Source: Schizochytrium sp. TIO01 (lineage: Eukaryota > Sar > Bigyra > Thraustochytrida > Thraustochytriidae). Taken from it: a stretch of DNA of 64,000 nt. Of this stretch, positions 26,945 to 53,930 are shown one piece after another. The notes below the pieces were generated by a model. The model was not told where the DNA came from and made no database searches. It saw only the letters and a list, made by a program, of their open reading frames with translations. Numbering within the stretch: position 1 is the stretch's first letter; each line of letters begins with the position of its first letter. The position numbers and the translations under genes are program-made. Location: assembly GCA_004764695.1 (NCBI GenBank), contig SMSO01000031.1, forward strand, positions 8,928,761 to 8,992,760. Reading direction: 5' to 3'.

Positions 26945-28300
26945 TTAATCAATGAAGAAAAGAGCCACAATTCTCTGCTCGAAATTCACAACGCAAACCC
27001 ACAGCATATAGTTAACAAAATAGGAAGCCAATGCTTGTTCAAATAATCCAAGATATGACCGTGCTCCATACGCAGTTCCATTAGCTCGCCACACTTCTTC
27101 GCCAATATCAGGCAGCGTTACACTCTTTTGCATGCGGGATAACTTAAATATATATATTTCTGAACTTTAATTAACAGTAGATGTCGTTCAACAGCATGTT
27201 TTGAGCGGATATTTCACCAATCAAGAAGTCTGCACTTCACAGACCTAGATAATGAGCTTCTCACCTATTTTCTATTCTCCAACATAAAATATGGCTGTTC
27301 TACACATATAGAATGCTTGATGTAATGACTGAAGAAATTTCAGAGTACTGACACTACACGGAGAACCAGAAAAGTTGCGCACTGGTAGTACCAGCAATTA
27401 GAACAGTAAATGTAAATTCCAGCAAATGCCAGTAAATAACTCTTCAAGGCGGCCTTGCTCACCGTGAGGATCAGCAAACTGGTAGCTTGGTGTGTGTGTG
27501 TGTAAGCTCAGAAATATCTGCAGTGTCCGCACTGAGTCTCCATGTATATAGTCAAACAACTTCAAATGATGGCCCCACTTCATAATATCTTTATCTGTAA
27601 CGGATAAATTGAAGTATTCTTTACATTGCTGGTTACGTCAAGGCTATTGAATGCTTGCTTTGCTGTATCGAGCTGGTGCTTAGGCTACTTCATAACCTGC
27701 AGAAATCGTTTTATAACGTTGAAAGCCCGGCCCGAGACGTTTCTCCTTCCTTTAAACTTAATACCTACTGCTAGCTTCCTGCACCGCGCGCTGGTGAACC
27801 AAATGCCCTGCAAAAGTGGTAACGAATGTAAGAAAGGCAATGCAGACAGCAATTCTGAGTCCGACTTTGAGCTGTATTCTTGCAAGTCTGGCTTGGTTTT
27901 CTGGCAGTGAAACTTGCGAAAGGTTCGTTTTATTCTGCAATGTGGTACTTTGTCGACGAGAAGCACGCAAAACCCGGAGTGCTGTAGGTTTGCCTGCAGA
28001 TACGACGGGGAAAAAAATTGTATGGCTTGCATTTGCCTTTGCTTCCAGGCAATCGGCGTTTTCCAATCATGCTTGAATACCCAACCATTGTCCATCGACC
28101 AAGTCCCAAGATACTGAAGGTGTTAAAACCGTAAGCTCACATCGCATAGTGCAGATCATGCCATGCTTCGTCGACTATGTATGGAACGAAGAGAAATCAA
28201 TACCAGAATCCCATCACTGGCTGGCATTTTCAGAAATATCACCTCATTGGTATGCACATCATACAACGTAGTCTGAACTTCGAGGCTTTCGTCGACTCTC
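26945..28300 (-). pseudogene. Fragmented membrane-protein gene (exons or relic)
   Basis: Coding-like pieces occur in order on the minus strand but in different frames. About 28285-28205 reads TLYDVHTNEVIFLKM. About 28105-28040 reads GTWSMDNGWVF. A Lys-poor stretch ends in a clear hydrophobic helix (GLRIAVCIAFLTFVTTFAG) near 27870-27800. The next piece is about 27583-27420, and the last, 27133-26945, holds a second hydrophobic stretch (ASYFVNYMLWVCVV). GT-AG pairs of 40-90 nt could join some of them (for example GT near 28220 with the AG near 28112), but not all junctions keep frame. I cannot name the family. It is either a multi-intron gene or a decaying one. Confidence 0.3.
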
Positions 28301-29847
28301 TGCTTCTTTTCTTTTCTTTTCTTTCTTAATAGAGAGCAATTAGATCAAAAAGCCACGCGGCACTCTTATGCAATTTTTGATGTCTCGCTTGGCCGTTGGT
28401 CGAAAGCACCTTTCTACCTGACATTACGTTCTTTTTTTCTTTTCCTTTTTTTTCTTAAAAAATAAATAATCATATTATTATTTTAGTATTATTAATGAAA
28501 TTTTATAAATTAGGTAGCACCTAGTAAGCAAATAAATGCACCGAAGGGGAAGTTTGAATTATTCTTGTGTCATACCTAGACATAAAGAACATCAAAGGAT
28601 CAAACTTATCAAATCCTATTACTTGGTTTTCAAGATATGCGTTTTGTCATGAAAAAAACAACAACAGCGTCCCTCGAGTTCAATGACCTACCTGCCATGG
28701 CCACAACATAAGAAGGTCTTCCAGCACCTGCTCAGAGTGGCTACCAAGTTTATTACTACATGGTAATAACTCGACATTACTTGAGGATCAAAAGTACCGT
28801 TAACCACCTGTCACCTTGTGATCACCAATGTTCGAGCCAATCTTAAAAGTTAGTCGATCCCCTTGCTTTCCTTTCTGAAATTCACTGGTATACTTCCACT
28901 GATGGACTACAGTTGCTTGCAGGCTTCCTTTCTCAACCCCCCCCCCACCTTAACCCCCCTTCTATCCACTGAGGTATTAAGGTATCAAGACAAAAAGCCA
29001 AGTCGCAGCTCAGAGGTTGAAAAATCACTTCTGCTGCAAGGAAAATTACAACACACAAGAACGTAACTAAATCCCCGAGGAAAACACATTAACTACAGTT
29101 AGAACCTTAGAGATGCCTCAGAGATGTCACTTCCATATGTCAGGTATACCAGATAAGAAATAAAAACTAGAAAATTAAATTCGTTGGATATCGAAATTAC
29201 TGCAGGGAAGTACTCCAGAGGTTTACTTACTGGAAACTCGATGACTATCTTAAGTAAAATTAGTGCTTATTTAACAGCTACTCACTTCGTTGAAGCGTTC
29301 TAGTGCGTGTGTGGCCGTCGCAATTTTTATAGAGCTTTGCCTACCACCTTGCTTGAAGAGAATTCTGTAACATGTAGGGGGAAGCAAACCGCGGGTAATA
29401 GATCTCCCATACCAGTGCAATTGTAAGACTTGCAAGTGTCAGATATATGGACCATCGCGGCTTCAATTTGAAAGCAACGGATGCTGAAATAGTGCGTTTT
29501 TCTTTCATTTAGAGAGGGGTCTTGTGGAAATTCTACCACCTAAATTTGTTGACCTTAAATAATGATTAGTATTATCTTGAACAGGTGACAGCGGTTGTGA
29601 AATACTTTAACACTATGCCAAGAAATAATGATTGTCTTTCTTTTAACTCGACTTACTCTTACGATGAAGCTAATGTCTTGGACTCAAATACTCCTTGCAA
29701 ACCCCAAACAAGCGTATCTGAGTTTCAACTATTCCGGAGTTGCTCATCTGCGCCTTGTTTTGATCTGAAGAGTTACGAATTGTGGTTTAGGTACAAGGAT
29801 CTAGGTGCCAAGAGGGTGGTAGCAAGTAGTTGGTGCTCCTCTATAAA

Positions 29848-31987
29848 ATGCTTCTTAACGAGCCTTCAAGGCAAGCAAAAATCCTAGCAATATGTTGGAT
29901 TGCTCTTTATGCTAGCGTATCATGTCATTTTTCACAAGCTCTTGAAAGCCATTCTGGAGGTTCTTGCGTTGAGTATCCTGATGATGGGTGGTGCTCAGAG
30001 TTTGGTTTCTCAGGAAAAACGATATTTCAGTGGGACAACACATCGATTGCATATCTTGATGCTTATATTGATGCCCGGTATTCAGCTATACGCCAATCAA
30101 TCTCTAGTATAGCCTCCAACGACTGTATTACACATTTTTACAGAACCATTTGTCTGGGATATTTCCCACTTTGTGACTCAAGTACTGGGGTACCTCGACG
30201 TCCTTGCGCCTCGTACTGTGAGGATGTTCATGACAATTATTGCACTGCAGCATTTGGTAAGTCCGCTCTTGAACTTGTGGTCAAATGACTTTTTCTATCT
30301 CATAGATGCTAACTCACCTTGTAATCTACGAATTGTAATCATAGCCATCGTGGAAAGTTTAGGCTTGTCAAGTCTTGTGTACCAGTGCACAGATACCATT
30401 GGAACGGCGGCTCCGTCGACCTCTCATTCAGCCATTACAGGATTATTTTATCACTATCTCGAGGACTGGGATGGAGAGCCTATCTTTGAGGAAACTACTT
30501 ACTCAGATATCGACAACTCAAATCTTGAGTGTATTACTGAGACAGAGTTAGAAGTAGACTCTTGCTCTGGCAATGATTGTGCCTGGGGTATGACCAATGT
30601 ATGGTACCCAACTTTGCTTGATGCTACAACGGGTTTGGTTGAGTATAATGATCCTGATGACTTTGATTATTGCTTTTATTCGGGGTCTAACAGTTCTGAC
30701 ATGAACTGCACCCGGTGCGACTCTGTTTGCGACATTGCCTGCCCACTGCCTTTCATCTACACGGACCATCAATACACATCGTTATGGGTAACGACGTGGT
30801 TGCCTGGATTCATTGGTCTTCCGCTCTCTATTAGTGTCGTTTTAAATGAACGAAAGAGAGTGCTTCGTCTGAAGCGTCGCGACTTTACAGACTGGATTGT
30901 TTGCGTAAGTGCAATCATCTGCATCATGTTGTTCTTCTTTGACTCATTGCCAAGCGCCATACTTGCAGAAGATATGCGATGCAATGGATACGATGTTCTT
31001 GACTTTCGTGTCAACTCATATGGAAATTCCTATTGTGAATTTGGAAAAATTAAGCCACACCTCCTACAGGCTTTACTCTTGTGTGTAGCAATTACTTTGT
31101 ATAAGGTGTATCGACAAATTAAAGCATCGCGCGCTATGAGCCGCTATATCCCTTCTCGAGGATTCGTTATCTTCTCCCGACTCGGGCTCATTTTGATTCC
31201 AGGACTCTTGAGCCTTGGCACGTTCCTTTTGGAAGCAGACCAATTATATATGACTTCATATAACTATCGAATCGCTCAAGGTGGAAGCTACTTTGAAGAA
31301 CTGATGTATTTTCCAAACCTCATTCGGTACGCTTATTCATGTGGCCCACTTTTTGAAAGCGAGTTGGAAGAATGGATATTTGTTCAGGGTCCTCTTCTTT
31401 TGATTGGATTGTCATGCGTTTTGTTATCCTTTCTGCTACTGCACAATGTGATGGCAATGGGAGGTTTCACTATATCTTCTCGGGGCAAGGGTACTACTGC
31501 ACCAACGAATAAGGCTAAAACCAACTCGTTATACGCTCTAGCTATCAACATGCTGATTTTTGCGGGTTTCTCTACGATGCTTGTTTTGATCAATGCTATT
31601 GCAACATTCTCATTTCTTCCACATGCAAAATCATTTGGAGTGGAAGTGGACATGTGGGTTCGTTGTGCAAGAACTGGTATCGACTGGAAGACAGCAGTCG
31701 CAGAGAATGCTACAGATGTATCGAATTACGTAAGTACCAACAAAACCAAAGCAGGTGTAATAGCTCATTGTGGAGCCCTGGAAGATCATGCACCTGATTT
31801 CAGTCTCATTATTCTCCAAGCAGTTGCACAAAGTCTCCCTCCTCTTTGCTTTGGCTTTATCTTTGCACTTCCAGTTATTAAACAGATTGCAAAATGCAAG
31901 TTTAACAAGATTTCTCCTAAAGTCGAAGCTACCTCGGCAGCGCCAACAACAACGACATCACACAACCATAGTATAAGTATGGATTGA
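29848..31987 (+). CDS. Frizzled-like receptor: Cys-rich domain plus 7TM (one intron)
   Basis: Two exons, 29848-30256 and 30306-31987, give 696 residues. An ATG in TATAAAATG starts a hydrophobic signal segment (residues 10-25). Residues ~40-132 form a Frizzled-type Cys-rich domain: eight Cys with the signature spacing THFYRTICLGYFPLCD, then RRPCASYC, then YC. A further Cys-rich extracellular stretch (about 175-290) contains N-glycosylation sequons. Seven hydrophobic helices follow between about 298 and 665, the last ending in a short basic cytosolic tail with Thr/His repeats. CRD followed by 7TM is the class F (Frizzled/Smoothened) layout, also known as fsl receptors in Dictyostelium. The 7TM part was matched by topology rather than by residues, so class F is tentative. 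The ligand is unknown, and Wnt is not implied. The TM5-6 loop has a basic segment. It is convergent with the receptor gene at 32313-36803, 325 bp away. Confidence 0.75.
30257..30305 (+). other. 49-bp spliceosomal intron
   Basis: Begins GTAAGT and ends CATAG after a T-rich stretch. It contains in-frame stops for the upstream frame. Removal joins phase-1 ends into a GAT codon and continues exactly in the downstream frame, uniting the Cys-rich domain with the 7TM part. This is the clearest intron in the window and sets the expected intron size. Confidence 0.85.
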
Positions 31988-32312
31988 GAGGCGAGGTTCA
32001 TTATGTGACGTCCTGAAAGGTTTGTGTAAACATGCAGATTGTGTAAACATGTTTTTTTTTTATAAATAAGGAAATTAGAGCTATGAAACAATTGCGAAGC
32101 AAAACTTCCGAGGTTTGACATGCACAAATATGTTCCCCGTCTTCCTGCACATATAATTCTTGTATTCTAATATTAAACATAATATATTTGAAGAAAGAAA
32201 GCGCTTGCAACGTAAGGGTTGAAACTAATTTACAGATTATCTGTGTAAGTAATATTTAACTTCACCTTGCAGATCTGGTCTCCCAAATAAATGTGGTGAG
32301 AATTGCACAAAG
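31988..32312. other. Short convergent intergenic spacer between receptor genes
   Basis: 325 bp of AT-rich DNA between the stop codons of two convergent 7TM receptor genes. It must contain both poly(A) regions. A T-run lies at about 32051-32060. Confidence 0.6.
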
Positions 32313-35300
32313 TTATGACTTCGACTTCGACGAGGCAGACCCTGGTTTGTTATTATTCGTGCGAAACCCGCCGAAACGACGATTCGAGGGGCTTGATTGA
32401 GCGCCAACCTTTGTTTCAGAAAACGGGGGCTCCGCAATGACCTCCTTGTCACTCTCATCGGAGCTGTAGACGGTTTCTATGGGTGCACAATCGAGAGCAA
32501 CGCGAGGCTCCGGTTTACTATCTGCAATAGCAATGGAATTGTCAGTACTACCATCCTTTGACAGTTTAGATGAGGATGATAACTTCTTTTTTCGAAAGGA
32601 CTTTGGCCTAGAGACGCTATCATCCCACTTTGTTTCGCCCGTATGGGGATGAATAAGATACTTCCGACCGCTTGTTGGATCAAAATTCTCAATCCAGGCG
32701 GCCTTAGTTTTCAGGTTCCTCTTGCGTCTTTTAGAGCTATTTCGCCCGATTAAATCATCTATAGACTCCGTTCGCGAATCTGACTTTTGGAGAATATCGC
32801 TTGAAGGATCTTCCAGCGACAGGTTGATTGGCTCCCTCTTCTCGGCCCCAGGAGGAAGAACAACCTTGGGCGTGGCACTTTCGAGAGACGCTAAAATTGA
32901 TTGTAGCTTGCGAATATGTCCAGGGCGAAGCCCAGCATGTCGCAAATCCTCTTTGCTCGCAAGAATTAGCTTCTCTGTAGAATCTAAACCCTGAGATTTC
33001 AATCCTACAGAGTATTGATCAAGATGGTTTGTTGTAAGGAAAATTTCAAACGGAGGAAGCGTTCCTATCAGTGTGGCTGCCATTCGCTTCGCCTGCTGTT
33101 CGAGCTCTGTCAATTTATGTTCATGAAGTACTTGCTGAGCCTTGAGAATTTCCACTGTATCCGTTTTCTCCTGTTCAATTTGGGATACGTCTGCTTTGAA
33201 CTTCTCAGTGAGATTATGTTTGTCCTGTAGACGTTGCGCTTCAATATTCTCTACCTCCTGCAGATAGTCCTCTTCAATCTGCTGTGCCAGCTCTTGATGC
33301 TCTTTCTTGATACGATGCAAAGCATCCATAAAGTCTTCGTCCATTTCACCAGTCACTGGGTCAATACGATGCTCCTCAATAATTCTAGTTAGTTCTGCAT
33401 TTTCTCTTAGCACGATCTGAATTCGCTTTTCGAGAATCATGTACATCTCAGGGCTCCTATATGCGAGACCTCGCTTCAAGGGGTCGTGCATTTTGTGTGG
33501 ATCTCGTTTCACTTCATCTTCAGGGGCAGGAAAGCTGCTAAGTTTGTTGAGATCAGCAATGTTTTCCAGATGAACTTGGTGCCTACGGGTTATTGGGGTG
33601 GTCATCACTGATCCTCTCGCAATTCCATTGCGAATTACGCTTGGTATTGCCTGGGAAAATCGTCGAACTGCCTGAAGTCGTGCCCCCGGAGCTTTTGCAA
33701 CGCTCACGGCAGCAGAGAGAAACATGCTTGCCCGATTTCGCGGTGGGGAAGTTACACCAATTTCATTATTGCCTGGCACGGAAATTATAGCGCTTGGACG
33801 AGACTGATGAGGTACCACCTGAGAACGCGACCGGTTTGCTTCGGCAAAAACTCTTGGCATATCGGCGACTGGATCACCAATTGCCAATGATGGATCACCT
33901 GTGGGGTGTACCAGACCGAGCTTGAAATTGTTAATCTCAGGGCTATAGAGGTGGATGCGAAGTTTGGGATTAATAAGTAACCCGAGAATCACCCAAATTG
34001 TGGCAAGACAAGAAATAGACACGAGGACAAATTTGGCATTCTCATTTGGGGATACAACCACTTGCGAGGCAAAGTACCCTGTTCCAGCTACCAGTAAGGT
34101 CGCGAAGCTAGTCACCATAAGATGGAACCCCTCATTAAAGTAAGTAGGTTTGAGCCGTAGCTCAACTGCAAGGCGGCAATTCATTAAAAGGAAAGACATA
34201 CAACCTACAAAAAGTAGGGCCTCGAATGCTGAAAGCTGACTACCGTACTCACAGGAAGCGTATTCAAGCCATACACGATCTGTCAAACGTACACTTGCCG
34301 TTCCTGGAGTGAAGAAGAGAAACCACAAACAGAAGAGCCCTACCAAAAATAAACAGATGGGCTTTAATGTCTCCTTGAGATCTTCGGTATTCATAGCCAT
34401 ACGAAGTTTTTTCCGATTTAGCTTCGTGTAAATTGATAACTGGATTATAGCAAAAGGTACAGCTATGAGGATAGGCCGCAGAATACAATGAATTATTGTA
34501 ATCGGCCCTGCCCAAACAAAAGGACCGAGTGCTCCAACAAGTGAGCTTTGCAGTATTAACTCAAGGAACCATGGGTGGGAAGTCTGAAACACGACAGAGG
34601 ACTTTGCATTTTGTCGGATCAGTCGGCGTGCCCATGTTATGTACAGTATTGTAGCTACCTGAAGACCGAATATAGGCCAGAAAAGAAAGCTTTTGCCAAT
34701 TATAACCGTCAGCATATCAGGGTCTACTAAACCTGAGCAGTCATCTCCAACATATCCTTGATCACACTCACAAGAACCTGCATTTGGGTGAAGTTGCAAT
34801 AATTCACTAGTTGAGATGCACGTGCCATGGCCTGAACATGTTTCATTATTTGTCGATGAAGACTCCAAGTCAACAGTCGCAAATGGGTCCTGGAGTTCGC
34901 CTAAACAGCGTACTTGATTTGCCGTTTCAGGGAGCCACGACTGCCAAATATCAGTGTTATTACGAACCCAGTCGCAAACAACCGTTCTTGCACGCGTTGG
35001 CGCTACCATTTCCCTGTAGATAGGGTCATAGTCAAAGGAGGCTAACAAGTGCTCTTGTTGATCCGTTGTCAACTGAAATCGCCGAAGGAAGCGATATGCC
35101 TCGGGTGCATAATTTTGTAGGTTCGCTGCAAAAACCTTGTAGATAATTTCATTTTGGTATCCACATTGTTCCTGTTCTTCCACGTTAGCTGGAGTGCTAG
35201 CATTAGCGGGACAACGATCTTCAAACGATCTTTGGCTCGGCATGCACTCCGCATCTGATGGATAATCTGGCAGTTGCACTTTCGCAAGTTCAAATTCTGG

Positions 35301-36803
35301 ACCAGAATAGTTTCCCCAGGGTTCGTCTCCTAGCATATATTTGTGACGTAGAAATAAACTGTCTGGTCGTGACCAACTGATCAAAACTGGAGATGCATCA
35401 TCGGAATTCTCCTGAAGCAGACGTGCAGAGACCTCCAAGACCTCTTGCACTTCACTTCGCATATTGTAAGGTTGGACTTGTAGATTATATGAATTTACGA
35501 TATCGTAGTCACGGTTTTGGAAGCGACTATACCCGTCTTCACCTTCGTTTAGCCAAGTTAGCCATTCCTCAGCACCTGGAGTGACAGGCATCAAAGTAGA
35601 GTTTGGGCAACTTGTAGATTGCAGGACACCCGTTCCTGTATCATCTACGAAAACACCCTTGTAGAGGAACTTCACATTATCGAAGCCTTCACGGGTAAGT
35701 TCTGACTCAGCAATAGGCAGAGCCGTCTGGAGATCATCTGGCGTAACCCAGTATTGCGTACAAAGAGAATAAAACAAAATCCCAGTTGTTGTATTTTGAT
35801 TCGTTGCACATCTTTCAAGAACAACCTCGCGAGTTGCATGGTACTTGGCGTCAATATTATCTGCATATACAATATTATATTCTGCAAGGAGAGCGTACTC
35901 GAAGAAGAAATGGCAAAAATGTGACGGGGTTGATGCATCAAGCGCAAAGGGGTCATCACTTGAAGCAATATAGCCCCATTCAGACAGTGTTCGTAAACAA
36001 TATTCACCGAAGGTAAGAGGGTATCTAAATACCGCTGTGGAATTCACACCTTTCATTCCACGAAATGAAGAGAGGGTTGGATCTTCGTCAAGAGCGCTTT
36101 TAGTTGCCCACCAACCAAACTCGCCGATTGATCCAAGGCGACCTCCGTCTTCTACTGTTTTACGCTGTAGTACGTATTCATCGTAATTTTCATCTTGACC
36201 GTTAGGCCATACTTCAAGTATGGCATGAGCGCAGGGATAGCAATTATCCTTGCAGCCTGCCTCCTGAAGATCCTGGGGCATTTCAACTCCGTATGTCGCT
36301 TTGAAGCCATCTGAGCAATCCATTGACCCACTCGAAGCTAGGTCTAAAGCATCCCAGCTATATATTCGTCCATCAAGGACATCAAACCTCGAATTATTGT
36401 AGTACCAATATGGTGTGTCGCCCCCATTGACATTTTCGATGCGTACAGGCACTTGAAGCTGCTCTTCAAGTATAATTTGTGCAATCCAGAGATTGTATAA
36501 ACTTGATCTCCAAGCTGCGCCTGTCAAAATAACAGTAGCTCGCTCTAATTGGTTCTTTGAACAAATCTGCGTTGAAGGATCATCTGAAGAATACGGAGTC
36601 TCATCATCCTGACAAACCCGTAATCGATCTGTGCATTGCGGCGCCCACACCATTGCTCCGTTGCTTGCCTGCCCAAGGCTTGCTAAGAGTACAGCTGCAA
36701 GCATTGAAATAAAATAGGGTACCATCGAGGACAATCTCCTGCGTCTTCGCTTTTTAGTATGCATCTCCTCTCTGTTGTTTAGCCTGTCTTGGCTCTTAGC
36801 CAT
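32313..36803 (-). CDS. OpuAC-EGF-7TM-SAM-WW multidomain receptor
   Basis: A predicted plasma-membrane receptor of 1496 residues. ATG 36803 (TTTACCATGGCT) precedes a basic stretch and a signal/anchor helix (28-44). An upstream in-frame ATG at 36980 would add 59 unlikely residues. Residues ~88-530 resemble the OpuAC/ProX substrate-binding fold of glycine-betaine ABC transporters (early block WRSSLYNLWIAQIILEEQL, late block VLISWSRPDSLFLRHKYML), with many sequons. An EGF-like module follows (~655-685, CSGHGTC ... CECDQGYVGDDC). Seven hydrophobic helices span ~690-945 and end INPKLRIHLY, like the PK motif closing TM7 of class C GPCRs. The cytosolic tail has a coiled coil (~1121-1243), a SAM domain (~1254-1307, LDQYSVGLKSQGLDSTEK) and a WW-like motif (~1368-1396, W...GETKWDD). 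Family knowledge: class C receptors use periplasmic-binding-protein-like ectodomains, but normally the Venus-flytrap type. Inferred role: sensing a small quaternary-amine or similar osmolyte ligand. Signalling partners are unknown. Confidence 0.82.
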   Translation of the reverse strand: MAKSQDRLNNREEMHTKKRRRRRLSSMVPYFISMLAAVLLASLGQASNGAMVWAPQCTDRLRVCQDDETPYSSDDPSTQICSKNQLERATVILTGAAWRSSLYNLWIAQIILEEQLQVPVRIENVNGGDTPYWYYNNSRFDVLDGRIYSWDALDLASSGSMDCSDGFKATYGVEMPQDLQEAGCKDNCYPCAHAILEVWPNGQDENYDEYVLQRKTVEDGGRLGSIGEFGWWATKSALDEDPTLSSFRGMKGVNSTAVFRYPLTFGEYCLRTLSEWGYIASSDDPFALDASTPSHFCHFFFEYALLAEYNIVYADNIDAKYHATREVVLERCATNQNTTTGILFYSLCTQYWVTPDDLQTALPIAESELTREGFDNVKFLYKGVFVDDTGTGVLQSTSCPNSTLMPVTPGAEEWLTWLNEGEDGYSRFQNRDYDIVNSYNLQVQPYNMRSEVQEVLEVSARLLQENSDDASPVLISWSRPDSLFLRHKYMLGDEPWGNYSGPEFELAKVQLPDYPSDAECMPSQRSFEDRCPANASTPANVEEQEQCGYQNEIIYKVFAANLQNYAPEAYRFLRRFQLTTDQQEHLLASFDYDPIYREMVAPTRARTVVCDWVRNNTDIWQSWLPETANQVRCLGELQDPFATVDLESSSTNNETCSGHGTCISTSELLQLHPNAGSCECDQGYVGDDCSGLVDPDMLTVIIGKSFLFWPIFGLQVATILYITWARRLIRQNAKSSVVFQTSHPWFLELILQSSLVGALGPFVWAGPITIIHCILRPILIAVPFAIIQLSIYTKLNRKKLRMAMNTEDLKETLKPICLFLVGLFCLWFLFFTPGTASVRLTDRVWLEYASCEYGSQLSAFEALLFVGCMSFLLMNCRLAVELRLKPTYFNEGFHLMVTSFATLLVAGTGYFASQVVVSPNENAKFVLVSISCLATIWVILGLLINPKLRIHLYSPEINNFKLGLVHPTGDPSLAIGDPVADMPRVFAEANRSRSQVVPHQSRPSAIISVPGNNEIGVTSPPRNRASMFLSAAVSVAKAPGARLQAVRRFSQAIPSVIRNGIARGSVMTTPITRRHQVHLENIADLNKLSSFPAPEDEVKRDPHKMHDPLKRGLAYRSPEMYMILEKRIQIVLRENAELTRIIEEHRIDPVTGEMDEDFMDALHRIKKEHQELAQQIEEDYLQEVENIEAQRLQDKHNLTEKFKADVSQIEQEKTDTVEILKAQQVLHEHKLTELEQQAKRMAATLIGTLPPFEIFLTTNHLDQYSVGLKSQGLDSTEKLILASKEDLRHAGLRPGHIRKLQSILASLESATPKVVLPPGAEKREPINLSLEDPSSDILQKSDSRTESIDDLIGRNSSKRRKRNLKTKAAWIENFDPTSGRKYLIHPHTGETKWDDSVSRPKSFRKKKLSSSSKLSKDGSTDNSIAIADSKPEPRVALDCAPIETVYSSDESDKEVIAEPPFSETKVGAQSSPSNRRFGGFRTNNNKPGSASSKSKS

Positions 36804-38154
36804 GGTAAAGTATGTGCTGCCCGTGAGAGCTACTCCACTCCCGCTCTTCCTGCTCTCATCAACAAGACGAGCTTGTTCCGCTGCCTGAAGCGCTGGAGTA
36901 AAGATGAAGACCGTATAAGCACTGCAAGGCGGCTTGGAGGGTTTGCGTACTCCTGTCAGCGCACCCAGACAGGGTCCCATGGAGACACCTTACCTAGATC
37001 GCTACAAGTTCGCTGTGATGTTTTGAAGGGCTTTCGTGCTCCGGTGGTCTTATGGAGGGAGCCCAAGAAAGCATAGAAATGGCCGTTATGAAGATGACGA
37101 AGACTTAGTATAAATAAATGCTAATATATTATACCAATTTGTAGTAGTAGTCCCAGCTATATTAATAGTAGGGATAGTGCACACATGTACCATTCGTACT
37201 ACTGAATCCTGGTATGGTGCCAACATGAGAACCAATATACTACCTTGCACTGCTGCCCTTCTTTACAGCTGGTGGATATTTGCAGTCTTTGATTCATGGC
37301 CACTATCAAGAATTTGTTTGCAACCATTTTACTAGGATTAAAGCTCAAGTAAAATAAATCGGGATCATAGGTAGCTAGTGCGTTAGGTAGGTTGAGGCTA
37401 TGTTTGTTTTGAGGTGAAACATAAATTTAATTGCTTCTTAGTAGTGACAGTGAATCGAGAGCAAAAAAAATGCAAATTCGCATCGTGATCGTACAAAGAT
37501 TCGTAAGATGAAGCCAATGACAAAGATGTCAAAAGTATTTGATTATTGGTTATCTTTATTATCTCATCTTGGAATAGTATATATAATTGTTTGTTTATAA
37601 ACTCCTTTTGAAAGTTGATTTTTCTCGTTTTCTCATTTTCTCAATGCTTTTTTTGTTGTTTTTCTTTTAGCCGACATTTGATCTGATCAGCAGCCAAGTT
37701 AGAGAGGTTTACATTTGACCTAGACTTTAAGCTGCTGCTGCAAAGCAAAAAGTAATGCCAGTGTTTTAATCGAGCAAGTCAGGTTTGCTTGATCGCATAG
37801 GCAGTAGAAATACAAACAGAACGTTATATCCCCCCGTTCCTTGGGGTGGTTTTGGTCGTGCTAGGTACCACCTACATGTTTATCACAACATCTCTCTGGA
37901 GATCAAGAAGGAAGAAGGATATCGCCCAACGACCATGGGGCAGTAGAAACAATGACGAAAGCCGAAAGAAGCCGAAAGAATTGGTATACACAGGATTATG
38001 TTGGTGAAGTTGAAGTAAGGCTATATATAAAAGTTGAGCGAGAGAGCAGAGCTGTGATGGGAAGTAAGCGCCCTAGTAGCAATCCGAGTAGTAGGTATAT
38101 CTCCTCTCGTCATGAAGGTCATGTTGAAGCAGTGCCATCGGTACAAAGACTTAT
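36804..38154. other. Intergenic, nothing recognised
   Basis: AT-rich 1.35 kb containing the promoter of the large receptor gene. GTAGTAG repeats lie near 37141-37150 and TAGGTAGGT words near 37370-37392. No supported ORF. Confidence 0.55.
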
Positions 38155-38691
38155 TTACACAGGAATTGGCGACGTGCGGCGCAGCTCCTCACGACGCTCT
38201 TGACGGCGAGACTGGCGACGGATGAGCTCCTTCTTTGTCTCCTGACGTACATCCTTTTGCACCTCAGGAGCACCGTAAAAGTTCTCGTGGATGCGTGGCT
38301 TGGCCCCCTTGCTGGCGGTACGAACATGAAGACGGCGGATCTTCTCTTGCTGCTCTGGCGTACGGGAATGCATGTAAATATCCGTCGCGGACTGGGCTCC
38401 TGTGGAAGACACGGTATCGAGCACCTTGGGGATTTCGGTCACGCCCATCTTACGAGAGCCGTGGCCGTCCGAGATATCCCAGGCACGCGCAACGCGGCTG
38501 TTACGCCGTGCAAGCAGTCCTGAGCGGTCAGCTCTGTTGAGCATTTGCTCGCAATAGGCCGGGAAGGGTCTGCTGCCCTCCAGATTCTGCTTTAGGTACA
38601 GACATTCGGGCACAGAAACCTGAGCGGCCGCACCACGAGTAGCGCGGCGGTAGATATCGTCTACCTTGGCGTCTTCTGACTGGTTCACCAT
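38155..38691 (-). CDS. Conserved-looking basic protein of unknown function
   Basis: An intact ATG-to-TAA ORF of 178 residues, not recognised. It is hydrophilic and basic with no TM or signal peptide. The N-terminal half has Arg-rich short helices. The middle has a Ser/Thr segment (VLDTVSSTGAQSATD). The C-terminal third is a strongly charged helix (EVQKDVRQETKKELIRRQSR) likely to form a coiled coil. Codon composition is GC-richer than the flanks and there are no low-complexity runs, which supports a real gene. Short basic proteins of this kind are common among ciliary microtubule-associated proteins, but that is speculative. Confidence 0.65.
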   Translation of the reverse strand: MVNQSEDAKVDDIYRRATRGAAAQVSVPECLYLKQNLEGSRPFPAYCEQMLNRADRSGLLARRNSRVARAWDISDGHGSRKMGVTEIPKVLDTVSSTGAQSATDIYMHSRTPEQQEKIRRLHVRTASKGAKPRIHENFYGAPEVQKDVRQETKKELIRRQSRRQERREELRRTSPIPV

Positions 38692-40692
38692 TGTGCTCGT
38701 TTCCTCGGCGTGGTTCTGGTTCTCTGCTTACACCGTAGCAAGGGTCTTCTCAGTAGCAACTTGTTCAAAGCTGGTCTTGTTCGCGTAGAATATACCTTGA
38801 CTTGACTTGACTTGGCTTGATTGATTGATGAACTTGGTGTGTCTTCGCTTGCTGCTCCAAATCTGATTTCGCTTTGAGTTCGAGTTTTGGTTTTGGTTTC
38901 TGGTTTGCTGTTCTGGAGATTCATCTGATCAAACCAAATTTCTTTCAATACTCTGAGAAATGTCTTTTACTCCTACTCTGACCCCAAGCTTCTATAGTTT
39001 CATCTATCGGAACCAGCTCAAACCTTTTTTTTTTTTTTTCTTTCTTTCTTTTAGCTACTTTTCGAGTCTAGACCTACTGCGATAACTATGTTCAGTCTAG
39101 GGTCTCTATGATATATTCACTTTCAGCTTCATTTTGTTTTTCTTAGTGTTTTATTCTTTTAACTACTTACTGCTCTAGAGTACTACGAAGATATTTTAAA
39201 TACATAAATAATAAAAGCTTATCAAAAAACAGAAATAAAAATAAATAAATAAAATCTTTCTCACTTTCCCACTTTCTCACAAATTCCAAGATATCACTAT
39301 TTTCTTTATTCTTTCTATTTTTTAAAGTTACTCTTTCAAACTGAGCATCTCTCAAGAAACATAAAAATTCGAAAGATTTTTGTCTTTGTAAGATAGAGAG
39401 AGCGGTGGAGATATGAACTCGTCAGGCCCAGATCCTACACCTCCTTAGCAGTTTCTGGTAAGCCCACTCCACCAGCTCGAAGACGTCAAAAGACTCACTC
39501 ACTCCCGCCGAGTTCCTGCTTTCTCTCTACCCCTCCGCCTTCAAGACAGCTGAGCACCGCGAAGAAGCCACTCTCCTCGCTCTGCTTCCACGAACATCTG
39601 GCGGTCTAAAGCTTCGAACGCAGGCGGCCGCAGGGAGTCAGTCTCTGCTCCTCCGCAAGCCTCTTCTCAGGTTCTCTCTTTAGTACGTACCCGTAATCCG
39701 GAGTCATCCCTGGCCGACTTGGAAACCCTCAGGTCGAGATCCTCTTCGAGATCAATCAGAAAGCGTCCAACTCGAAGCAAGAGCGAGTGTCCTTCGAGTT
39801 CAGGTTGTCCGTTCAAGCGTTTCATCACATCAGGCCCACGCCATCGAGACCGAGGAGAAACAAGCAATCGAGCAGAACCAGCGACCTCCAAGTGCAGGCG
39901 AACTCGAGTTTCATCTCTTCAAGGTGGCCAGCCAAGCTCAACTGAGGACAACGGGCCAGGCCGCCGCCGCCGATCCCCTGCGAGCTCCTCTCGGGCGAGC
40001 CGCTGGCCACTGGTTCCTGGCGTTATTCGCTCTCCGCCGAGCAGCCTGAGCTCTCGCTGCTCCAGCATCGTCAACGGGGCGCTTCCGGGGCCCGTGTCCA
40101 CAGAGCCGTCTCGAATTCCTCGCCCGCCATTCCCGCTCCCCAAGCACAAGCACTCCATGCGAGCTTGGATTGAAGAAGAAGAAGAAGTTGGAGCTCTCTT
40201 CGAAGCCCCTCTGCAACCCAAGAAGCGCCATCACCCTCGTGACAGCCCGCGCTCTCAAGACGGCCGAGCAGGCTCCTGCCGACGAAGAAGTAGGTGCTTC
40301 CGCTGCGGCTTCGTTCTGGGCCCTCCTCGCCCTCCTCAGGGTTCGCAAGCCCGAGCTCCTTTCGATTTTCGTTCGACGGGCGGCGAGCACTTCGAAGGAG
40401 CAGACGACCAACCGTCTCGACCTCAGCAAGCGAGCAGGCGCCCAACTTGAAGCGCTCGAGCATTTGGAGCAGCGCGGCCTCGAGTGCATTGGCGTTTTCG
40501 CCTTCGCTTTCGCTGCCAGAGCACGCCCCGCGATCCTGGGCGGAGAGCCGCCGCGACCCGCCCTGGCGGTGCCTGGGCGAGCGCCTTACGCTTGCTTCGT
40601 TTGTCCATGTCGAGACTGGAGGCCCTGCTCCCCGTCACGACCTCGAGCGCCTTTGCGCAAGGTTCTTCATGGAAACGCCACCAAAGCGAAAA

Positions 40693-45637: not shown

Positions 45638-46576
45638 ATGTCCTCGAAGACAGATACCCTCAGCCCAGTATGCCTGGTCGATGTTCCGCTCACACCAGCA
45701 GCCCAGGCAATGGATCGCTTTGAGTTATGTCAAACTGGAGCTTTGATGTTGTACCAACATTCAGACTCATTTAAAGCTACAGCTCGTGTTTGCATTTGCC
45801 CATATGCTTCAGAAAGCAAGTTTGATATTTCAAAAATTACTAATAGAGCATTGGATAATGCTAAGAAGACGCAGCCCGGATACTGTTTTCAACCCAGCAA
45901 CCTTCAGTTTAATAATGCTCCAGCCTCAATCTTCACTGAGGAAGAGAGTTCTTTTCTGGTACGATCGTGCTTGGCATGTTTTTCCTGTGCCAATCTTCGT
46001 GCTTTAGAGCTTCATATTGCTGGAAATGGAGCTGAGCACTATCTTATGCAACGTGAGTTTCGTCTTGGAGGGTGGATCTGCTGCAACTTAAACTCGCGCT
46101 TGCTTCGCTCCGACGATGGTACACGATCTCAAGAAATCGGGCGTGTGAAAGAAAACTGTGAACCTTACCCGTGTAGAGCGATGGAGTCCTGTTGTCTTTG
46201 CACCTCATATGATGATGTACAACTAAAAGTTAATGAGACCTACATACAGCGATATCGCATTCGAGAGAATAGAAGTTGCTGCAATGGTTCACATAACAAC
46301 TGTTGTGGAAGCACTTGCATTAACAACGACATAGTCTTCGATATACTTGACTACAATGACAGGAAGGTTGCAGAGGTGTCAAAAACTTTTGCTGGAGGTA
46401 CGGGGTTGGATTTTCTTACTGCAATTTTTCGATGCTGTTGTAACTATTCAAATTATGTTGTAACATTTCCTCCCGGTTCGAGTGAGGAGGATCGCGCGTT
46501 AATACTTGCAGCAGTTCATCACATCGACTACAAGTTCTTTGAGAAACCTGGGCTGAGGACGTTATGTCTCTGCTAG
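45638..46576 (+). CDS. Phospholipid scramblase-like protein, paralogue A
   Basis: 312 residues, ATG in ATCATG. Member of the phospholipid scramblase/tubby-like beta-barrel superfamily (PLSCR type), implicated in Ca2+-dependent transbilayer movement of phospholipids or in membrane-linked regulation. Shared core with paralogues B and C: an N-terminal acidic EEESS; a Cys-rich CFSCANLR; LGGWICCNLNSRL; IGRVKENCEPYPC; SCCLCTSYDD; the box RENRSCCNGSHNNCCGSTC; then AEVSKTF and a hydrophobic C-terminal helix ending VVTFPPG with EDRALILAAVHHIDYKFFE. The last corresponds to the ILAA..IDF helix that ends PLSCRs. The Cys clusters match the palmitoylated Cys-rich regions of animal PLSCRs in position. It is the most divergent of the three, with extra substitutions in the first third and a Cys-rich end (LCLC). 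Confidence 0.8.
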   Translation: MSSKTDTLSPVCLVDVPLTPAAQAMDRFELCQTGALMLYQHSDSFKATARVCICPYASESKFDISKITNRALDNAKKTQPGYCFQPSNLQFNNAPASIFTEEESSFLVRSCLACFSCANLRALELHIAGNGAEHYLMQREFRLGGWICCNLNSRLLRSDDGTRSQEIGRVKENCEPYPCRAMESCCLCTSYDDVQLKVNETYIQRYRIRENRSCCNGSHNNCCGSTCINNDIVFDILDYNDRKVAEVSKTFAGGTGLDFLTAIFRCCCNYSNYVVTFPPGSSEEDRALILAAVHHIDYKFFEKPGLRTLCLC

Positions 46577-49546: not shown

Positions 49547-50437
49547 ATGGATGTGCTTCCTGTTAAAGCTGGAGATGTTGATTATACACCAAAAGCCCAG
49601 ACTATGCAACGTCTCGGCCTGTCAAGCTCTCAAGGAGTGACTCTCTATCAGAAAGTTCAGCCAAAGCAAGCCCTATTCGAGTTTTTGCACTGCCCCTGCC
49701 AGGAGGAAAATGAATACAAAGTAGCCCACCTTCCTGAGGGAGCTTTAGCAAGCGGTCGTTACAAACCCAGCAATCAAGAGCTGAGTCGAGCAACAAAGCT
49801 TGCGCATGTGCAGGAAGAGAGCTCTGAAAAGGCTCGTTGCTGGCTCACATGCTGCGGGTGCGGAAACCTTCGCAAGCTTAAGCTGCATATTAATGGTAAT
49901 GGAGGCTCGCAATATGTGATGAAACGCAAATGCCTCCTTGGTGCTTGGGTCTGTTGTAATCTCACCTCCCGTCTTTATGAGGTCGATAATGGCACAGATG
50001 GTCGCAAGGTCGGCCGTGTAAGAGAAAACTGCGACCCTTACTTAAGCAAATGCATGGAGATGTATTGCTTATGTACCAAATACGATGATATCGAGGAGTT
50101 TGCGGATGGCAAATTTGAAGCACGTTACCAAGTTCGCGAAAACCTTTGCTGCTGCAATGGTGCCCACAACAACTTCTGTGGTGGAACATGCTTCAACAAT
50201 GACATGGTGTTTGAGGTCATCGATACCCAAACAGACAAGAAAGTGGCAGAAATCACCAAGACCTTCGGCGGTGGTGATGATGCCCAGGGCTTTCTTGCAG
50301 GTTTTTTTAGAATGATCTGTCATTTCTCATCCATCGTCGTCACCTTCCCAGATGAAACTACAGAAGATCAGCGAGCTCTCATCCTTGCCGCTGCTCATCA
50401 CATTGATTATAAGCTCTTCACAAGAAGCAGTTGCTGA
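49547..50437 (+). CDS. Phospholipid scramblase-like protein, paralogue B
   Basis: 296 residues, start AAAATGGATG. Same architecture as its neighbours: EESSEKARC, CCGCGNLRKLKLHINGNGG, LGAWVCCNLTSRL, VGRVRENCDPY, YCLCTKYDDI, RENLCCCNGAHNNFCGGTC, AEITKTFGGG, and the terminal helix EDQRALILAAAHHIDYKLF. Unlike A and C it has a slightly altered Cys pattern (LSKC in place of PCKC, NNFCG in place of NNCCG), so the metal-binding or acylation pattern may differ. It lies 3 kb downstream of A and 2.6 kb upstream of C, all on the same strand. The intergenic distances argue for separate promoters. Confidence 0.82.
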   Translation: MDVLPVKAGDVDYTPKAQTMQRLGLSSSQGVTLYQKVQPKQALFEFLHCPCQEENEYKVAHLPEGALASGRYKPSNQELSRATKLAHVQEESSEKARCWLTCCGCGNLRKLKLHINGNGGSQYVMKRKCLLGAWVCCNLTSRLYEVDNGTDGRKVGRVRENCDPYLSKCMEMYCLCTKYDDIEEFADGKFEARYQVRENLCCCNGAHNNFCGGTCFNNDMVFEVIDTQTDKKVAEITKTFGGGDDAQGFLAGFFRMICHFSSIVVTFPDETTEDQRALILAAAHHIDYKLFTRSSC

Positions 50438-53018
50438 GACAAATTTCAGACAACGAAACAAGAGAACATGCATTTAGTGATTTATGATCACGATGAAAGT
50501 AAAACAGACTCATAATCATTTTAAAAGCATAACTTCACACTCGTTTTCCTTACTGGACCAAATATTAGTTCCAAGAATATCCAAAACGGAGAGGTTAGTT
50601 CTATTAATCCTTTTCATTCTGTAAGGGCTTACATCTAAATAGATTACTCAGGCAGTCCAATTGCGTTTGGCGTGAATAGGCTAGCTTCTTATTGTTCACC
50701 GGACATTTATCTTCTATTTAGAGTATCGGTTTTACGAGTTAGTTTGAATCCTCACCCGAAGGATTGACCGGATCAACTGTGGCCGGCGATATTTTCAGTA
50801 TATAGGGAACCTTGCTGCTGAGATGCAGGAATTGTCATTTGTTAAAATTGAAGTTAGAAAGGACCCCCCTTTAATTTCTTGATTATAGAAATCCTTTATA
50901 GTGACTTTTCTTCCCCTATTTTAATAATAATAATAATAATAATATAAAAATTGGTGCAGAAAACGCACATTTCTATAATTTAAGTTTTACAAAAAATCCA
51001 AACGTCCCACATTATGTTACTGGAGTACGTATGAATTTTCAAGGATTAGTCTCTGACTGATGATATTCCTCTGTCTCTCTCCAACTCCTACAAGAACTGG
51101 ATGAAACTGGCTGAGTGAAGAACAATATGGGTTTGTACCTGCAATTTGTATTTTTGAGTAAGCCACAGCAAAGAAGCATTCGGTTTCAAGTTTTACGGGT
51201 GTACTCTACCTACTAGTAGGTACTATTATTAGTCTGTTCTGTATTTTTTTCATTTTGCTTTAAAAAGCAATCTTCGACTAGTGAGTACTCAAGCAGTGCA
51301 ACGAGAAAAGAAACATTTATTCGCGGTCACGGGTTATTGATTGTTGTGACTGGAATTTCTACCCCAAGGCAAAGGATTGATAGGAGAAGCCTCTGAATAG
51401 TAAGAGGCAGAGCTTGTTAGAGCTTGTTCCAGTTTAGCAAATACGCGCATGTTTCCAATAGAATCCTTCTTAGTCCGAGGCTATCCAACATGCATCCGCA
51501 AACGATTTTAGAGAACTCGGGTTGCAATTCTTCAAATTTACGCTTGTTTTCATGTTGACAATTGAAAGTCGGTAAGAAAAAAGCACTTAGTGAACCGATG
51601 ATTGCTTAGTTAAAAGCAGTACCTACCATCGCTGCATCGCTGCATCATTTGAAATATTAAATTTTGTTGATGCAACGTCAAAGTCCAAGTTTGACATACA
51701 TTAAAACCTACTAGTCAACGCCTGGGATGCAGGAACATCGACCCGGCATCCTTGACTGAGCGTAACTATTTTCGAGGACATAGTGTTGACCCTACGAGTC
51801 TCAGGAGCTCAATGTGACTTGACTTGGCAAGCGTGCTTGACTTTGTTTGAGACACGAGTTGATTCAGAAACCAAAAGCAAAGATTTTCAAGAATTAAAAA
51901 ATACATATACGTTTTTTGATAAGGTTAGGTATTTGCTTTGCGCCAAGGTAGGATATCACATGAGATTTGTATATACTGATTAAGAAAGTTAAATTAAAAA
52001 TGAAAAGAGTTTGAATTACTGCCCAGGCAAAGTTTCTTTAAGCTACATTCTTCATAGAACCACAATTCTATAAAGTAAGAAAGGATTATACTGAACAAAC
52101 GCAAGCACCTACCAACGACAGTCGTTTCTTCATTTGATGTCCAAACTCAAGTTGCCCGAAGAAATTCAAGTCATCCATGACTGAGAAGCAGGGGGGGTTA
52201 GTTTTTGTAGCCTTTGAGAAAAAGCTCGGGTACCTTCTATGTCTCAGTAGCAGTGATGATTTTGGCTTTAATTTCTACCCATGTCAAAGTTTATAAGAGC
52301 TATCTCAGTGGCAGAGACTACTCTTGATTTTTTTTTCATCTTCTATGAAGTTCGAAACGATTGTACTGAACAAACGCAAGCACCTACCAACGACAGTCGT
52401 TTCATCATCTGATGTCCAAACTCAAGGTGCCTGAAGAAATTAAAGTCATGCATGACTGATAAGGAGGTGGGAGAGGGGGGGGGGGCAATTTTTTGAAGTC
52501 TTTGAGAAAAGGCTCAGCTCCCTTGCACTTCTCAGTAGTAGTGATTGTTTTGGCTTCCGTTTCTACCCATGTCGAAGGATATAGGAGTTACCTCAGTGGC
52601 AGAGGCTATTCTTTAAAAAAAAAAAATCTGCAACTAAAAGTTAGTAGTGTACCAGGTAGGTAGCAGGTGCACACGTGGAAACTGGGCAAAACTCGGATTC
52701 TTCGATGTGCTCCAAAACGCAAAGGTTCAAATCCATATTGCACTTCACCTCAATCCGCTTCATCAGACTTTGATAGGTAGTGGAGAGAGGTAGAGCAAGT
52801 CAACGGTGGCAGAGCAGTACTTACTGTAGCAGCTACGAGACAAGACACTGATCTTGTTCTTCAACCTAGCGCTGAGACTTGACTAGCAAGTTGGTCTCTG
52901 TTGGCTCGGTGCATCCATCACAACTTTGGAGTGTAAGTGAGCTCAAGTCGATTGGTGGAAGTACTTAGCAAGTGCAAAACGTCCCCAAAACCTCTCAAAC
53001 TCTATTTTGCAGGCAACA
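50438..53018. other. Intergenic within scramblase array
   Basis: 2.6 kb without a supported gene. It contains (TAA)n at about 50921-50943 and a 270-bp tandem duplication (listed separately). Immediately before the next start codon is a TTTTGCAG sequence that looks like a splice acceptor, suggesting a 5' UTR intron. Confidence 0.55.
52084..52625 (+). repeat. Two-copy ~270-bp tandem duplication
   Basis: The unit at about 52084-52345 is repeated at 52359-52625. The first 100 bases are nearly identical (both carry ACTGAACAAACGCAAGCACC at the start), and similarity continues through TTTCTACCCATGTC and TCAGTGGCAGAG to a homopolymer end. The units have diverged by point changes and indels. A weaker, shorter third match may lie near 51350-51420. 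It encodes nothing recognisable. Confidence 0.85.
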
Positions 53019-53930
53019 ATGAATCCGGAAATGAAAGGTACCCATCTTGCAAATGTTGTGGTAACGCTTGCACCCGATGCGCAGTCCATGGATAGACTCG
53101 GATTGACTGCGACAAAGGGTGTCATGGTTTACCAGCAAACGCAGGGAGCAGAAGCACTTGCTCAATATATGGGCATTCCATACGAAGCTGCCAACAAGTA
53201 CAAGGTCGCTCGTATATCGGATGAGCTTTTCACAAAGGGCAAGCGCTTCCAGCCAACTGGAGAAGAACTTGAGAAAGCCCCTATGGACATTTTTGTTGAG
53301 GAGGAGAGCTCAGATGGAATGAGAATCTGTTTGACTTGTTGTGGATGTGGCAACCTCCGCGGCCTCAAGCTTCACTTCTATGGAAATGGTGGCGAACAAT
53401 ACGTAATGCAACGTAAATTTCGTCTCGGCGCTTGGATCTGCTGTAACCTTAATTCAACACTCTTTCGAGTCGAGAACGGAAGCTCAACTCAGCAAATTGG
53501 ACGAGTGCGTGAAAACTGCTCCCCATATCCTTGCAAGTGCATCGAAATGTGTTGTTTGTGTACCACTTACGATGATATCCAGGAATACGTTAATGGAAAA
53601 TACGAACAGCGCTACCGTGTTCGCGAGAACCAGGCTTGCTGCAATGGCTCTCACAACAATTGTTGCGGTGGCACTTGTATAAACAATGATATGGTCTTTG
53701 ATGTCTTGGATAAAGAACACAAAGTAGTAGCTCAAATCTCCAAAACTTTCGGTGGAGGTAATGGGATGAGTGGCTGCTGTGCCGCATTATGCAGATATGC
53801 CTTCAAATTCTCGTCTTTTGTTGTTACCTTTCCTGACAACACTACAGAGGATCAACGGGCCTTAATTTTGGCTGCTGTGCATCACATTGATTACAAGCTT
53901 TTTGAGAAAAGTGGCAATGAGAACAACTGA
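53019..53930 (+). CDS. Phospholipid scramblase-like protein, paralogue C
   Basis: 303 residues, start CAACAATGAAT. The reading upstream to 53007 begins at TTG and is preceded by a likely splice acceptor (CTATTTTGCAG), so the true leader may be spliced. It is the most regular of the three paralogues: EEESSDGM, CCGCGNLRGLKLHFYGNGG, LGAWICCNLNSTL, IGRVRENCSPYPC, CCLCTTYDDI, RENQACCNGSHNNCCGGTC, AQISKTFGGG, and the closing helix EDQRALILAAVHHIDYKLFE. By analogy with PLSCRs the closing hydrophobic helix inserts in the membrane and the Cys clusters are acylated. A Ca2+-binding segment is not obvious, so scramblase activity is unproven. B and C are closer to each other than either is to A. Confidence 0.83.
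   Translation: MNPEMKGTHLANVVVTLAPDAQSMDRLGLTATKGVMVYQQTQGAEALAQYMGIPYEAANKYKVARISDELFTKGKRFQPTGEELEKAPMDIFVEEESSDGMRICLTCCGCGNLRGLKLHFYGNGGEQYVMQRKFRLGAWICCNLNSTLFRVENGSSTQQIGRVRENCSPYPCKCIEMCCLCTTYDDIQEYVNGKYEQRYRVRENQACCNGSHNNCCGGTCINNDMVFDVLDKEHKVVAQISKTFGGGNGMSGCCAALCRYAFKFSSFVVTFPDNTTEDQRALILAAVHHIDYKLFEKSGNENN

Follow-up and report, generated by a model that had tools for sequence, protein, structure and literature searches.

Can a class C receptor catch its ligand with a binding fold that serves osmolyte uptake in bacteria? The question is raised by a single open reading frame on the minus strand (32313..36803) of the window, i.e., the whole stretch of 64,000 nucleotides analyzed here, and all features of the receptor described below lie on that strand. 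As a sequence-only reading of the stretch had stated, the frame consists of 1496 codons. A stop codon follows, there are no internal stops, and 1496 amino acids are encoded; a search of the genome (64 Mb, 37 contigs) placed it with 100% identity at G000:C30:8961076-8965563. An in-frame ATG upstream, at 36980, would add 59 codons and may be the true start. The claimed signal helix was recovered by hydropathy as a basic run followed by a hydrophobic segment (residues about 24-46; 36666..36734). No Rfam match was found within 28000-40000 and no tandem repeats within 32000-37500. By sequence, the signal segment is followed by an ectodomain of the OpuAC type, which an EGF module joins to a class C 7TM domain; SAM-like and WW domains come after these in the tail. 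Chance cannot produce a frame of 1496 codons with these domains. Our favored reading, which we hold to be probable, is that of a class C-type GPCR whose flytrap is of the OpuAC/TmoX type (type II) and not, as is usual, of type I (ANF), and which would combine the sensing of onium osmolytes with a scaffold tail.

The 7TM domain (residues about 696-950; 33954..34718) is assigned to class C by the Pfam model 7tm_3, which matches the whole protein with an E of 1.4e-11 and 45 bits against a cut-off of 33.5, covering residues 736-947 and profile positions 35-251 of 251, and reaches 50.5 bits on the isolated 7TM piece. The class C likeness noted earlier is thus upheld by sequence, as is the NPKLR motif at the end of the helices, which starts at residue 945. 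Of the seven hydrophobic helices that had been counted, a hydropathy scan (threshold 1.6) recovered four (residues ~762-795, 811-838, 856-882 and 922-948), while the other three rest on inspection by eye and on the Pfam alignment. Up to E 10, the 7TM piece has 16 matches in the PDB, every one of them an mGluR chain; they are weak (best E 0.02), and the end of TM7 is alike in their alignments. The window 7TM is also very divergent, with an end branch of 4.23 in the 7TM tree. The mGluRs possess a type I (ANF) flytrap and NCD3G, whereas the window receptor has an OpuAC-type domain and EGF in their place. The EGF-like module (residues about 651-692; 34728..34853) is recognized by EGF_Teneurin, EGF_alliinase, EGF_2 and EGF, all above their Pfam cut-offs when the piece is scanned in isolation, but no EGF model passes when the whole protein is scanned.

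The ectodomain (residues about 57-640; 34884..36635) requires a longer argument. A significant direct match to OpuAC (PF04069), which the sequence-only reading had anticipated, was not obtained: the model scored 16.5 bits on the whole protein and 20.1 bits on the ectodomain alone, against a cut-off of 21.2, and the match spans 41-43 residues of the protein. A PDB search with the window ectodomain by itself gave no match. The OpuAC-type assignment is carried instead by five paralogs on contig C7, which holds all seven OpuAC matches of the genome, in five ORFs, each of which (5/5) has both OpuAC and 7tm_3 above cut-off within the same ORF. When the window ectodomain was compared by blastp with 37 ORF records (L001-L037), ten of which represent the five C7 receptors, all ten C7 records were found with E values from 1e-12 to 6e-10, the best other record having 0.54. 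A Hidden Markov Model of the five C7 ectodomains, from which the window was excluded, gave 80.8 bits (E 1.7e-24) for the window and 2.8 bits for the best control, the controls being 27 other 7tm_3 ORFs, most of which start about 500 residues before their 7TM, where they were cut, together with 300 shuffles and 2 reversed sequences. The blastp and C7-model comparisons cover the genome's 37 7tm_3 places except four. By hhalign, the window and C7 ectodomains are related with a probability of 99.0, and the C7-only profile in turn finds TmoX (4xz6, E 9.8e-15), OpuAC (2b4l, 7.9e-6) and DmpX (7yle, 8.7e-6) in the PDB. Every link of the chain from the window through C7 to OpuAC is significant, and by this route the window ectodomain is a homolog of OpuAC and of other bilobed binding proteins of the type II periplasmic kind. 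It also contains an insertion (residues ~250-400) that is absent from the five C7 paralogs.

If the protein were a conventional class C receptor whose flytrap is of type I (ANF/LIVBP), its likeness to OpuAC would be due to chance. This would account for the short direct match below cut-off, and ANF_receptor is indeed found in three of the ten class C receptors of the same genome that were scanned (L008, L013 and L024). Those ANF-type receptors, however, are among the controls that the C7-only profile separates so widely from the window, and the window has no ANF_receptor match at E up to 5; we consider this explanation very improbable and retain the OpuAC-type assignment.

When the genome was searched with the window protein, the protein itself, the five C7 receptors and one further protein, L044, were returned, while searches with the N-terminal lobe returned the protein itself and the five C7 receptors. 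Because the C7 receptors are clustered (G000:C7, about 837-887 kb) on one strand, and because two of them, L034 and L037, have nearly identical 7TM domains, their arrangement suggests a recent tandem duplication. Neither bacterial genomes, searched with the C7 alignment, nor viral contigs, searched with alignment A1, yielded a relative. A search of bacterial genomes with a TmoX fragment kept 80 loci, of which 33 were used in alignment A3, 9 in the C7-route alignment, 20 in direct runs and 19 in fragment runs. The AlphaFold model of the ectodomain made with the 33 bacterial TmoX rows is unusable (mean pLDDT 41.9). The NCBIfam models were uninformative for the window; in the C7 records L001 and L002 they gave only choline- and betaine-binding matches far below cut-off.

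What such an ectodomain might bind can be approached through its best solved-structure relative, TmoX (PDB 4xz6), and through DmpX (PDB 7yle). TmoX is described as binding TMAO via W55, W102, W177, W222, F106, F220 and E131 (the relevant part of PMC8918994), and DmpX as binding DMSP via W35, W84, W152 and W202, with Tyr200 essential (the relevant part of PMC10030565). Both are free ABC-transporter binding proteins for uptake in marine bacteria, whereas the window and C7 proteins are predicted receptors. In the alignment via C7, each of the five C7 receptors keeps all four tryptophans of the box and also has Tyr at the place of F220 and DmpX Tyr200, Ile at that of TmoX E131 (DmpX Glu113), and His, Glu or Gln at that of F106. 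The window receptor shares most of the box. Its W98 (36510..36512), W199 (36207..36209) and W414 (35562..35564) are aligned to W55, W102 and W177, respectively; the fourth tryptophan, W477 (35373..35375), lies one residue before the W222 place, or coincides with it when a gap is introduced. In the C7-route alignment, S476 corresponds to F220 and S478 to W222, with W477 between them, F229 is at the E131 place and Gln at the F106 place. Three of the four tryptophans are therefore kept and the fourth is shifted by one residue or depends on a gap, and the window receptor departs from TmoX at the F220 place and, as aligned via C7, at the fourth tryptophan. The loss of the Glu, which is replaced by Ile in C7 and by Phe in the window, weakens the case for TMAO itself and for the exact DmpX mode of DMSP binding.

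Attempts at a better direct alignment of the window with TmoX failed, and they disagree with the C7 route on the W55, W177 and W222 places. In 96 direct runs, the W55 place was taken by W106 in 81, by W98 in 11 and by A323 in 4, and the W177 place was taken by W417 or I435 and never by W414; W477 was on the W222 place in 96/96, the runs being mutually dependent and poor elsewhere. The fragment-based runs scatter, and alignment A3, with its 33 bacterial rows, puts W106, not W98, on TmoX W55.

Because the C7 paralogs retain the entire tryptophan box of TmoX, sensing of an osmolyte or quaternary amine appears to be a reasonable function for these receptors. We propose that the tryptophans may hold, between the two lobes, an onium osmolyte that is small and methylated, such as glycine betaine, DMSP, choline or a related compound, that lobe closure would be relayed via the EGF module to the 7TM domain, that the latter would signal to a heterotrimeric G protein, and that the long SAM/WW tail could cluster or scaffold the receptor, where SAM might oligomerize and WW might recruit partners, as the sequence-only reading supposed. 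The genome contains 13 G-alpha rows above cut-off, one of them with internal stops, and four ORFs that belong to BCCT, the betaine/choline transporter family. The C7 sister receptors are stronger candidates for the onium ligand class than the window receptor, whose ligand may be a variant. A related possibility, which we think rather unlikely but take seriously, is that the window receptor has kept the OpuAC fold and has lost or changed the binding of small onium compounds; osmolyte sensing would then fall to the C7 receptors, and the window receptor would act as an orphan or co-receptor or would sense some other ligand. The Ser residues aligned to F220 and W222, the Phe aligned to E131, the large insertion, the weak Pfam OpuAC score and the long 7TM branch are all in keeping with such a change; the conservation of W98, W199 and W414 speaks against it, as does the constant position of W477 on the fourth place in the direct runs, which depend on one another and are poor elsewhere.

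The C-terminal tail was described earlier as a coiled coil followed by SAM and WW domains. The stretch at residues about 1113-1245 (33069..33467) is charged and helix-like, but the coiled coil was not confirmed: in our own heptad test, which is not a dedicated program, 980 of 1000 shuffles reached the same heptad score. The SAM-like domain (residues about 1250-1310; 32874..33056) finds mainly SAM-bearing chains in the PDB, led by a two-SAM chain with a chain E of 1.5e-6 (0.13 and 0.56 for its single domains) and followed by a match with E 0.0056; two of the 15 listed chains (4o6m and 1t1h) are not SAM by name. The Pfam model SAM_1, however, reaches just 16.6 bits (E 0.01) on the isolated piece against a cut-off of 23 and is absent from the whole-protein scan at E up to 5. 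An AlphaFold model of the SAM piece alone is unusable (mean pLDDT 43.6). The L044 protein, which contains fn3, WW, EF-hands and SAM, with SAM_1 just above cut-off, is 25% identical over its coil/SAM stretch to the tail of the window receptor. The WW domain (residues about 1367-1398; 32610..32705) passes the cut-off of 26.9 as an isolated piece (28.2 bits) but misses it within the whole protein (23.8 bits). By eye, a WW-like motif is also seen at the C-terminus of L011, L032 and L035, other class C receptors of the same genome; Pfam finds WW among these three tails only in L032, and weakly (19.6 bits, cut-off 26.9).

Could the tail belong to a different gene, the frame being two or more adjoining genes, one for a receptor and another for a protein with SAM and WW, read as one? 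Nothing equivalent to the tail is seen in the five C7 receptors, since their ORFs stop 36-71 residues past their 7tm_3 match, and L044 is an example in this genome of SAM and WW domains together in a separate protein. The frame is nonetheless unbroken over its 1496 codons, and long tails are also found on other class C receptors of the genome, including the one with the weak WW match. We judge a fusion of separate genes in the reading improbable and treat the protein as one receptor with its own tail.

The gene that faces the receptor tail to tail (29848-31987, plus strand) encodes 696 amino acids in two exons, with an intron at 30257-30305 (splice sites by eye). It has an N-terminal Fz-like cysteine-rich domain, which scores 27.5 bits in the spliced protein and 31 bits on exon 1 against a cut-off of 32.1, followed by several hydrophobic stretches seen by eye. 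The Pfam Frizzled 7TM model was not found in this neighbor, and its PDB matches are weak (ROR2, 0.072; Frizzled-10, 0.76). Six Fz matches occur in the genome, two of them above cut-off, and there is perhaps a Frizzled-like family in this probable stramenopile. Farther along the window, three ORFs of the scramblase family stand in a row on the plus strand (45638-46576, 49547-50437 and 53007-53930).

TTA is a stop codon in thraustochytrid mitochondria; in the mitochondrial COX1 of this genome, read from its likely start, TTA is used for none of the 63 leucine codons, although a single TTA occurs in the open frame upstream of it. Together with the many class C receptors and G-alpha genes, this codon usage makes a thraustochytrid the likely source. 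The entries IPR000337, IPR002455 and IPR017978 are class C entries. G proteins and these three GPCR domains are described as enriched in thraustochytrids in the part of PMC6050695 cited here. The core of the window receptor has a precedent. The fungus Allomyces macrogynus has six receptors of the Glutamate family with OpuAC and 7tm_3 (AMAG_01750, 04252, 14324, 14326, 15836 and 17562; PMC3251606), in which OpuAC (PF04069) is N-terminal to the class C 7TM as in the window receptor; the portion of that paper describing them names no EGF, SAM or WW, and the comparison is one of descriptions, not of sequences. The OpuAC-7tm_3 fusion is thus already known from a fungus, and the window receptor is a variant of that kind. 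A limited search of open-access papers, supplements aside, brought up no OpuAC receptor from beyond the fungi, none that bears a SAM/WW tail and no EGF linker combined with such a tail. In a tree of 32 of the 37 7tm_3 places of the genome, from which L031 (partial) and four others were left out, a clade of the window and C7 receptors is not rejected (p-AU 0.355); the tree does not place the window receptor firmly and is compatible with one origin of the fusion or with two.

The animal receptors mGlyR and GPR179 also have a ligand domain and an EGF-like module beside a class C 7TM; their ligand domain is Cache, however, not OpuAC, and a SAM/WW tail is not named in the description cited (PMC12716839). 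The same source, in the part cited, states that no non-metazoan GPCR yet identified has a Cache-EGF layout. In the genome studied here, the class C receptors L009 and L016, and also L010, L015, L020 and L022, have Cache-type ectodomains (sCache_2 above cut-off in L009 and L016) and an EGF-like cysteine pattern before TM1. This pattern is present in six of the eight receptors checked, and no EGF model passes; the layout resembles the Cache-EGF arrangement of mGlyR and GPR179.

The window receptor and its C7 paralogs indicate that class C receptors outside fungi can use the type II fold that bacteria employ in osmolyte uptake. If their pockets work as those of TmoX and DmpX do, these proteins would be specific candidates for a DMSP or betaine receptor in what is probably a marine osmotroph. 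It is conceivable, as a tentative extension, that at least six GPCRs (the five of C7 and that of the window) sense extracellular DMSP, betaine or a related osmolyte via a TmoX/DmpX-like pocket, and that one of them is wired by SAM and WW into a receptor cluster; should this be true, the organism would sense major marine osmolytes through GPCRs.
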